Positions 8,236 through 10,414 of a DNA stretch of 64,000 nucleotides are shown piece by piece; positions within the stretch are counted from its first letter, which is position 1; each line of letters starts with the position of its first letter. The notes under the pieces are model-generated. The model ran no database searches and was not told the DNA's origin. It saw only the letters and a program-made list of their open reading frames with translations. The DNA comes from Prochlorococcus marinus CUG1438 (GTDB taxonomy: Bacteria > Cyanobacteriota > Cyanobacteriia > PCC-6307 > Cyanobiaceae). The position numbers and the translations under genes are program-made. The DNA lies in contig JAEPLS010000001.1 in NCBI GenBank assembly GCA_017644325.1, positions 744,001-808,000 of the forward strand. The letters are read 5' to 3'.

Positions 8236-8982
8236 TTATTTTTCAATTGCATATTGCCATTCGTTATTTTGAGATAGACTTTTCTCTCTGAGTAACTGTA
8301 ATTTCCTACTATTTATTTTAATAACTATCCCATTAGTTGGATACTTCGCGAATATTTTTCTCTCTAACCAATTTTTTTTATATATTTGGATTTCGCTTGT
8401 ATGATTTGTGAAGTAACTCTCAGGGGTGCTGAAGCCACATTTTTTAAGATAGTTAAGGGTTTCGTATTGATTAAGTCTTCCATTAAGTATTTGGAAACAG
8501 CAAAAGCTGAGACTTTTTCCAATGCCTTGATTATTGAGGTATTTTCTTGTAATTCTTTGGGAAATGCCGGCAACTTGGTTTGTAGCGAATAGTTCACCTC
8601 TAATTTGAAAATCTCGTTTGATAGGAATACAATCTGGGACATTTTTAATTTGTTTAATTTTGCTTGAGACATCAAATCCTTTTTTTGTAATAGCTTTATC
8701 AAAATTTCCATCTATATATCTAATTGCAATAGCACAGCCATCAATTTTTGGTTGAATGCTTAATCTTGTTTTTGTGAATAAACTTTCCAAAAATACTTTG
8801 TAGTTTTCTTTAGCTAATTTTGGCAAAGGTTTATTATTTTTTTGATTAAAATAGTTAGGTTCTGGATCAACAGGGATAAAGAGCTTTTCAAGTTGCTTAA
8901 ATGCATTATCCGAAATTATGCCTTCACCTATTCTGTATTGTGCATCTAGATACTTAACATCTCTCACTAATAAATTATTCAT
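8236..8982 (-). CDS. stand-alone NAD+-type DNA ligase adenylation domain
   Basis: The 248-residue protein contains nucleotidyltransferase motifs in order: motif I KIDG (79-82), motif III RGE (128-130), motif IV NGIVIKI (217-223) and a motif V-like WQYAIEK (242-248). The N-terminus (about 10-35) resembles the NMN-binding Ia region of LigA, but E. coli LigA H23 and D36 align with R17 and K29, and Y35 with F28. The protein stops just after motif V, so OB fold, zinc finger, helix-hairpin-helix and BRCT domains are absent (LigA has about 670 residues). It may adenylylate itself, DNA, RNA or something else. It is divergent from the photolyase-like gene. Confidence 0.8.
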   Translation of the reverse strand: MNNLLVRDVKYLDAQYRIGEGIISDNAFKQLEKLFIPVDPEPNYFNQKNNKPLPKLAKENYKVFLESLFTKTRLSIQPKIDGCAIAIRYIDGNFDKAITKKGFDVSSKIKQIKNVPDCIPIKRDFQIRGELFATNQVAGISQRITRKYLNNQGIGKSLSFCCFQILNGRLNQYETLNYLKKCGFSTPESYFTNHTSEIQIYKKNWLERKIFAKYPTNGIVIKINSRKLQLLREKSLSQNNEWQYAIEK

Positions 8983-9259: not shown

Positions 9260-10414
9260 ATGTCATTTTTATTAGAAGCTCAAAGTATCTGGGACAATTT
9301 TGCGAAATATAAGATTAATGATTATGCAAAATTAAGAAATTTTGATTTTGGACCAAATAACGAAAGTTCAGTTTCAAAATTATCACCTTTCATTACGCAT
9401 AGAATATTATCGGAATATGATCTGATTCATGATATTAAATGTAAGTATAAAATCAAAAATTCAACTAAATTTGTTGAAGAAATATTTTGGAGAGTTTACT
9501 GGAAAGGTTGGATGGAAAATAGACCTCAAGTCTGGCGAAATTTTATTTCAGGAAAACATTTTGATTTTGATTATGAGCTTTATAAAAGTGCAATTAATGG
9601 AAATACAGATATAGATTTTTTTAATTCTTGGGTACTTGAATTAAAGCAGCACAACTATTTGCATAACCATACAAGAATGTGGTTTGCGAGTACATGGATA
9701 TTTAATTTAGGTCTCCCATGGCAATTGGGAGCAAAGTTTTTCTTTGAATATCTTTTTGATGGTGATGCCGCATCTAATCTTCTTAGCTGGAGATGGGTCG
9801 GAGGATTGCAGACTAAGGGAAAGCAATATCTTTTTTCTTCTTCAAACCTTAGAAAGTTTTCAAACAATAGATTTAATCCAGAAAAAATTATTAATAAACA
9901 AATTTTTCTTGAGGAATCGAATCAAATACCTTTAGAAGATGAGATTTTTAAAAATGATATGGATCCTAAATCTGATTATCTGATTATGTTTGAAAATGAT
10001 CTACACCTTGCAACCCTTAAAAATTTGCTTCCAAGCTATAAAAAAGTATTTATTATCCTTCTAAAGAATGAACAAAGACAAATTAAACTGTCTGAATCTG
10101 TTCTGAAATTTAAACAAGATTTGGTCTCTGAAATTGTAGAGCTTTTTAATAATGTTGAACAGATTGATCCTTATTCAATGGAAATTATTTTTAAAAATAC
10201 TAAAGAAATTGACATAATTTATCCCGGAGTGGGAGAAAATTATGATTTTATAACTGAGTTCAAAAATTTATATAGTAAAAAAATCTTTAATCTTGTGAGA
10301 GAAGAAGATTTATTTGCATGGAAATTTGCTAAAAAGGGCTTTTTTAAATTTAAAGAAAATATTCCCAAAATCAATCAGCAAATATTCGAAAACTATTCAA
10401 AAAATAATTTATAA
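9260..10414 (+). CDS. photolyase/cryptochrome-like protein with swapped domain order
   Basis: The 384-residue protein starts directly with a photolyase FAD-binding domain (about 1-215): LSPFITHRILSE (41-52), HNHTRMWFAST (135-145) and DGDAASNLLSWRWV (168-181), the usual flavin- and DNA-contact segments. The normal N-terminal Rossmann-like antenna domain is missing from the front. Residues 238-372 instead resemble that domain: DYLIMFENDLHLATL recalls the photolyase opening strand, then FKQDLVSEIVELF, then EIDIIYPGVGEN, then FAWKFAKKGFFKFKENIP, like the antenna domain's end. I infer a circular permutation. The activity, light-driven DNA repair or light sensing, is not settled. A long AT-rich divergent spacer precedes it. 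Confidence 0.75.
   Translation: MSFLLEAQSIWDNFAKYKINDYAKLRNFDFGPNNESSVSKLSPFITHRILSEYDLIHDIKCKYKIKNSTKFVEEIFWRVYWKGWMENRPQVWRNFISGKHFDFDYELYKSAINGNTDIDFFNSWVLELKQHNYLHNHTRMWFASTWIFNLGLPWQLGAKFFFEYLFDGDAASNLLSWRWVGGLQTKGKQYLFSSSNLRKFSNNRFNPEKIINKQIFLEESNQIPLEDEIFKNDMDPKSDYLIMFENDLHLATLKNLLPSYKKVFIILLKNEQRQIKLSESVLKFKQDLVSEIVELFNNVEQIDPYSMEIIFKNTKEIDIIYPGVGENYDFITEFKNLYSKKIFNLVREEDLFAWKFAKKGFFKFKENIPKINQQIFENYSKNNL

Follow-up and report, generated by a model that had tools for sequence, protein, structure and literature searches.

Why does a Prochlorococcus gene encode a photolyase-like protein whose two domains have swapped places relative to ordinary photolyases, and what might such a protein do? 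The gene, phr7, lies at positions 9260 to 10414 on the plus strand (stop codon included) of a 64,000-nucleotide stretch of the Prochlorococcus marinus CUG1438 genome (contig JAEPLS010000001.1, 744,001 to 808,000 of the forward strand), referred to here as the window, and encodes 384 aa from an ATG start. A preliminary description made from the sequence alone had given this frame and a flavin adenine dinucleotide (FAD) domain at its beginning, and both were confirmed. We conclude that the protein, Phr7, is very probably the Prochlorococcus member of the NewPHL photolyases, a group in which a photolyase-type alpha/beta domain follows the FAD domain, and that it would repair cyclobutane pyrimidine dimers (CPDs) in single-stranded DNA under blue light. 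This study itself observed the order of the domains, the fold predicted for them, the place of the protein in its family and the conservation of the flavin and repair residues of Escherichia coli PhrB.

The alpha/beta antenna domain is N-terminal to the FAD domain in ordinary photolyases (classes I-III), and it is N-terminal in CRY-DASH too, unlike in Phr7, where the FAD fold match starts at residue 1 and the alpha/beta domain occupies residues 239-384; the domain-reversed arrangement is real. The sole Pfam match of the protein is PF03441 (residues 71-201, E 8.3e-15, 55.2 bits vs a cut-off of 27), which together with the flavin-binding residues described below places Phr7 in the photolyase/cryptochrome superfamily, and the C-terminal halves of NCBIfam photolyase models align to residues 7-224 with scores under their own cut-offs. 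Searches of PDB sequences with the FAD half also returned photolyases, 4u63 being the best match (E 6e-12); E was 3.8e-20 when the family profile was used. An AlphaFold model of the whole protein, based on 33 aligned sequences, has two domains (mean predicted local distance difference test score (pLDDT) 89.2, predicted template modelling score (pTM) 0.90), with helices and loops in residues 1-200 and alternating strands and helices, including five strands, in residues 240-382. In VIA-align, residues 1-220 matched photolyase/cryptochrome FAD domains at Z 16.2-12.7, with such titles in 49/50 rows, the remaining row being a chain from an assembly intermediate of the mitoribosome. The PF03441 match, hidden Markov model (HMM) alignment to 1dnp and VIA-align delimit an N-terminal FAD-binding catalytic domain of residues 1-205 (9260 to 9874, plus strand). 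It is followed by a linker of residues 206-238 (9875 to 9973, plus strand), in which AlphaFold predicts neither a helix as long as 4 residues nor a strand as long as 3 and which corresponds to the stretch that holds the last helices in ordinary photolyases, and by the C-terminal alpha/beta domain or 'Z-domain' (9974 to 10411, plus strand), as delimited by AlphaFold models, VIA-align and HMM. All seven motifs picked out in the preliminary description are present in the order given there, at residues 41-52, 135-145, 167-180, 239-253, 284-296, 316-327 and 362-369.

That description knew of no photolyase of this type, which is no sign of novelty, as the inverted-order group has already been described, both in Prochlorococcus (as Phr7) and as NewPHL. 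Haney et al. (2022, mBio; PMC9426592) describe Phr7 as a FAD domain followed by a 'Z-domain' and equate it with the single-stranded DNA CPD photolyases of Emmerich et al. (2020), and NewPHLs of inverted topology that repair CPDs in single-stranded DNA are reported in PMC13274461, citing the latter study. At the level compared, the window protein does not differ from Phr7, with which it shares genus, domain order, distribution over high-light and LLI Prochlorococcus, and the absence of iron-sulphur (FeS) cluster cysteines. The NewPHLs of Dinoroseobacter shibae and Methylobacterium mesophilicum, as cited in PMC13274461 and PMC9426592, have the same inverted topology. The window protein also has the length of the group (~380-410 aa) and its order of an N-terminal FAD and a C-terminal alpha/beta domain, and its only cysteine is C61, which rules out a four-cysteine FeS site. 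The Phr4/Phr5 pair and the fused Phr6 of Synechococcus and Cyanobium are similar in having FAD first and alpha/beta second, but differ in usually being encoded by two genes and in having FeS-type cysteines, according to PMC9426592. SPL (Xu et al. 2021, as cited in PMC9649867, PMC9178010, PMC9498864 and PMC13274461) likewise has a FAD domain lacking an N-terminal alpha/beta domain, and PMC13274461 treats the two as a single class ('NewPHLs or SPLs'), whereas Phr7 has an alpha/beta-type domain at the other, C-terminal end. CRY-DASH has the same FAD fold (2ijg and 1np7 are in the VIA-align list), and CPD repair in single-stranded DNA has been reported for it (PMC9649867). A literature search on photolyases and circular permutation gave no paper on a permuted photolyase, judged by title.

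Full-length matches to Phr7 were found in 32/37 genomes of its own genus, including the 1.63-Mb genome of the window, and these, together with the open frames and the relatives in marine proteobacteria, exclude a chance frame. Using residues 205-384 as query, matches were obtained in 82/400 genomes of the family, confined to 2/59 genera, with 62 in the genus of the window and the other 20 in g79, a second genus that is probably LLI Prochlorococcus. Phr7 is known from high-light and LLI Prochlorococcus in the account of PMC9426592, and the distribution observed here fits this pattern. A scan of genome contigs gave at least 595 pattern matches, at least 590 of them being relatives, of which the best 80 were retained. 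The relatives include SAR11, SAR86, OM182 and Puniceispirillum, with the marine proteobacterial rows at 42-48% identity (SAR11 and SAR86 at 43-48%). Homologues that carry a name and share 84-92% identity with the window protein come from Prochlorococcus, except for one labelled as uncultured Synechococcaceae. Five alphaproteobacterial proteins in plasmid records align over their full length, C-terminal domain included, at 30-35% overall (four annotated as 'FAD-binding domain-containing', one without annotation), the best match to the FAD half in plasmid records being from Ruegeria TM1040 (48.7%). Ten phage records have FAD-domain matches that share 24.8-25.7% identity with the query and span no more than 56% of it; two are annotated as photolyase and eight lack annotation. 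Four stretches of viral contigs matched the pattern and one of them encodes a relative, a fragment with an 88% match to residues 343-383 at the end of an 11.9-kb IMG/VR contig (L098) that is classed as viral but is perhaps host DNA.

This distribution also bears on the idea that Phr7 is a degenerate remnant of a normal photolyase in the course of decay. The C-terminal half diverges fast (genera g1 and g79 share 33-41% identity in it), and 5/37 genomes of the genus are without a full-length match, both of which could be read as decay; against this, four of these five genomes are <90% complete, all 30 own-genus loci examined have open frames of 378-396 aa (stop codons flagged in five of them are simply where the genes end), there are relatives in proteobacteria, and all 13 catalytic and flavin residues mapped below are invariant in 33 rows. 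We therefore regard decay as hardly credible.

In the FAD domain trees, Phr7 falls inside a clade made up of proteins from marine proteobacteria (SAR11, SAR86) and alphaproteobacteria and is separate from the Phr4/Phr6 of Synechococcus. In a 90-row tree, which leaves out the rows of two genomes (L079/L207, L201/L211), the NewPHL-type rows including the window protein are on one side of a branch with support 98 (starred) and the marine and Prochlorococcus rows group at 100 (starred), so that Phr7 stands with the alphaproteobacterial NewPHL-type proteins, while 22/23 Phr4/6 rows group at 95 (starred) and the ordinary photolyases at 100 (starred). A second tree of 86 rows includes five 6-4-type photolyases and is thinned to 12/33 marine-type and high-light rows, 2/7 g79 rows and 16/23 Phr4/6 rows plus new ones (two locus labels were used twice, with the 6-4-type sequences kept under them); the NewPHL-type rows are again on one side of a branch, with support 100 (starred). 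With its single cysteine and a position outside the Phr4/6 rows, Phr7 is not a member of that group, which is nonetheless the nearest other branch of the FAD tree. In the FAD-domain tree of Haney et al. (PMC9426592), Phr7 is nearest to Phr4/Phr6, whereas it is here among SAR11, SAR86 and alphaproteobacterial rows, a difference probably due to marine relatives missing from their set. The near full-length tree (60 rows) joins the two Prochlorococcus groups (88, unstarred) inside a 42-row marine clade (98, starred), which suggests a single transfer into Prochlorococcus.

Are the residues required for repair present? In the HMM alignment to 1dnp, PhrB Y222, R226, E274, W277, R278, N341 and M345 correspond to Phr7 Y22, R26, E74, W77, R78, N136 and M140, while W359, D372, D374, N378, W382 and W384 correspond to W154, D167, D169, N173, W177 and W179, and all 13 of these catalytic and flavin residues are identical in 33/33 homologues. 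The same is true for the flavin-binding positions Y22, S39, L41, S42, R78, N136, D167, D169 and N173, and for the equivalents of E274, W277 and M345, the residues with which PhrB contacts the CPD.

Several points weigh against Phr7 being a repair enzyme of the NewPHL group. E. coli W306, the surface tryptophan of the electron chain, is not kept in Phr7 (F101-F103 region in the HMM alignment). The trees were 'quick' runs with supports from the Shimodaira-Hasegawa-like approximate likelihood ratio test (SH-aLRT) only, in the 90-row tree long branches meet between the ordinary photolyases and the rest, and the trees are without the biochemically tested NewPHLs of D. shibae and M. mesophilicum, so that membership rests on relatives and published descriptions. 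A structure from the NewPHL family was not found in the PDB sequence searches, which leaves the proposed capping role of the C-terminal domain an inference. Photorepair by the neighbouring Phr4/Phr5 group is also not clean: PMC9426592 reports that E. coli expressing the Phr4/Phr5 region survived UV-C with no significant difference whether illuminated or kept dark. A literature search found no activity test of a Prochlorococcus Phr7 protein. The absence of the tryptophan would also suit a cryptochrome-like blue-light sensor, having the same fold and using flavin photochemistry for signalling and not for repair, and the genome of the window does contain photolyase paralogues, with a FAD-domain match in a 479-aa frame at G000:C1:132830 and a prokaryotic 6-4-type match at G000:C1:25912. 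The sensor is nevertheless very unlikely in our view, given the invariant equivalents of E274, W277 and M345 and the second photolyase gene that many of the Phr7 homologues in SAR11, and those of g79 Prochlorococcus, have beside them.

The nature of the C-terminal domain is less clear-cut. The preliminary description had seen an order of strands and helices like that of the photolyase N-terminal domain, which was borne out in both AlphaFold models, that of the whole protein and that of the C-terminal 155 residues alone (pLDDT 86.0, pTM 0.76), with strands at 240-243, 262-266, 299-302, 316-320 and 341-345 and helices between them. The comparisons of structures and profiles that it proposed for this half had a mixed outcome. 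In VIA-align, the top 11 rows are photolyase N-terminal alpha/beta domains (Z 8.4-6.7), photolyase/cryptochrome chains fill 37/50 rows, and only two chains, both photolyases, reach Z 8; the margin is small, with Can2 as the best-placed unrelated chain scoring Z 6.7 vs 8.4 for the best photolyase, and a Z <8 may reflect merely a common arrangement, with a best Z of 7-8 being typical where there is no clear match. In Foldseek, the top rank instead went to phosphopantetheine adenylyltransferases (E 1.9e-3), the highest-placed photolyase stood at rank nine (E 1.5e-2), and nothing reached E <= 0.001. No Pfam or NCBIfam model reaches its curated cut-off on this half (CoaD is a weak sub-threshold NCBIfam match), and searching PDB sequences with the Prochlorococcus/SAR11 C-terminal domain gave no credible match; a calcium-binding protein at E 0.0064 was dismissed as a chance hit.

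Profile comparisons with hhalign gave an indirect connection. The Prochlorococcus/SAR11 C-terminal profile scored 0.1-2% with Phr5, ordinary alpha/beta and 6-4-type domains (0.1-0.3% with the first two), where the 6-4-type profile has 7 rows, two of them (L251, L256) DASH-like in appearance, and the ordinary set consisted at first of untrimmed stop-to-stop N-termini and later lacked L192 and L210 and had six further rows. The C-terminal domains of alphaproteobacteria (16 sequences), however, matched Phr5 at 76.7%, with a score of 36.9 and 100 columns in order, vs at most 16.2 in 60 column shuffles (a control made for this comparison only), 13.3 with the reversed profile and ~13 with two unrelated Rossmann families. 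The same domains gave 95.9% with those of Prochlorococcus/SAR11, and 7.6% (score 24.3, 126 columns) directly with ordinary alpha/beta domains. Phr5 matched ordinary photolyase N-termini at 98.0% and is thus plainly photolyase-like, unlike the C-terminal domain of Phr7, and a pooled C-terminal set gave 16.3% with Phr5 and 0.6% with ordinary domains. An HMM of the 16 alphaproteobacterial domains matched 97/104 loci at E 1e-3, own-genus loci included (11 of the matched loci are source rows of that HMM); 6 of the 7 missed loci are g79 rows, i.e. 6/7 of the rows from that genus. The chain from Prochlorococcus via alphaproteobacteria and Phr5 to ordinary photolyases has a single weak link at the sequence level, that between the alphaproteobacterial domain and Phr5.

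The preliminary description would have given up a photolyase relationship if the C-terminal half had an unrelated fold or no profile link; neither was clearly found, as there is an indirect hhalign link and no direct one. We consider the domain likely to be homologous to the photolyase alpha/beta domain, a relationship falling short of proof since the Prochlorococcus/SAR11 profile has no sequence link and adenylyltransferases come ahead in Foldseek. Somewhat unlikely, in our opinion, is an unrelated Rossmann-like (HUP/PPAT-like) domain that resembles photolyases by convergence, which would be compatible with Phr7 being a NewPHL photolyase. The Foldseek ranking, the direct hhalign values of 0.1-0.3%, the CoaD match and the small VIA-align margin all agree with such a domain, whereas the photolyase rows in VIA-align, the score of the alphaproteobacterial version with Phr5 over its shuffled and reversed controls, and the Phr4/5/6 group, which shares the FAD-then-alpha/beta order and the same side of the tree, argue for homology.

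Conservation in the C-terminal domain is concentrated in its tail, residues 347-364 (R..D...W.....GF..F; 10298 to 10351, plus strand). Among eight diverse homologues six residues of the domain are invariant: G325 and, within the tail, R347, D350, W354, G360 and F361. In the 33 marine-type rows D350, G360 and F364 of the tail are invariant, with W354 in 30/33, F361 in 24/33 and R347 in 23/33, as are G325 and N327 outside it. This pattern seems more in keeping with docking on the flavin domain than with the binding of a chromophore, and an antenna role for the domain is possible. For Phr7 as a NewPHL photolyase, we infer the following mode of action: FADH- in the N-terminal domain would be excited by blue or near-UV light and donate an electron to a flipped-out CPD in single-stranded DNA, and the electron would return to the flavin after the dimer ring is split. 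The C-terminal domain would dock on the flavin domain via the conserved tail, replace the missing last helices and shield the flavin.

How did the inverted order arise? In the 86-row tree all 51 FAD-first rows are on one side of a branch (SH-aLRT 91.9, unstarred), and one change of domain order suffices. The preliminary description had suggested gene duplication and trimming, for which we found no support, as there was no intermediate among the loci examined, in which no dedicated search for one was made. Of 25 distinct Phr4/6-type loci, 18 have FAD and alpha/beta in separate same-strand frames and 7 have one fused FAD-first frame. Split pairs of the Phr4/Phr5 kind also exist outside cyanobacteria: Deinococcus plasmids have a split pair (L096) and, in Deinococcus sp. 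AJ005, a fused FAD-first frame (L097), and in six loci of the alphaproteobacterial set (L229-L234) a Phr5-type alpha/beta frame is near a separate FAD frame. As FAD and alpha/beta genes are separate and adjacent in relatives, the splitting and fusing of a gene pair is a simpler explanation of the order than tandem duplication with trimming, with neither being proven.

The type of the neighbouring photolyase genes was named by eye from the sequence, and the Pelagibacteraceae flanks spanned at most 2.5 kb, with some loci shorter. In 28/39 Pelagibacteraceae loci (L132, L143, L151, L168 and 24 others) a prokaryotic 6-4-type photolyase gene is located downstream on the opposite strand (convergent), and in 7/7 g79 Prochlorococcus loci (L070-L076) such a gene is located upstream on the same strand, and this gene and the NewPHL gene could form a UV-repair pair. 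We see about an even chance that the following scenario holds as a whole: the Z-domain is a true homologue of the antenna domain, the FAD-first order arose once, before the split of Phr4/5/6 and NewPHL, by fission and refusion of neighbouring FAD and alpha/beta genes, and Prochlorococcus acquired the gene a single time, the donors being marine proteobacteria, whose NewPHL is frequently accompanied by a prokaryotic (6-4)-type photolyase gene, the two forming a UV-repair pair. If the inversion did occur only once by fission and refusion, the split Phr4/Phr5 pairs would be a living record of the change in domain order, which bears on the open question of the form of the first photolyase. An abundant phototroph of the surface ocean has a domain-inverted photolyase in common with SAR11 and SAR86. 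What this study adds is modest: a model of high confidence, evidence from fold and (indirectly) from profiles that the C-terminal domain is of photolyase type, the position of Phr7 among marine proteobacterial proteins, and the 6-4-type photolyase gene found next to its homologues in SAR11 and g79.

Some further observations concern expression and the surroundings of the gene. We take PMM1360 of Prochlorococcus to be phr7, an unconfirmed assignment with which the position of the copy in genome G015 (~1.309 Mb) agrees by locus number. An expression study reports PMM1360 to be a FAD-binding protein that lacks the other half, with a diel pattern like that of the photolyase gene phrA at a lower level (PMC3441193). 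At a SAR86 locus (L129), a second photolyase gene adjoins the NewPHL gene, and a frame resembling methylated-DNA-cysteine methyltransferase (MGMT) overlaps its start, both named by eye. In the window, phr7 is followed by a DoxX gene and preceded on the opposite strand by frames that resemble, by eye, a ligase and a short-chain dehydrogenase/reductase (SDR). The 248-aa ligase-like frame (8239 to 8982, minus strand) has a partial NAD-dependent DNA ligase adenylation domain as its sole Pfam match (PF01653, 1.5e-17); it is conserved near phr7 in own-genus genomes, many of which have a second copy elsewhere with ~48-52% identity, and it is possibly a stand-alone ligase-like protein.
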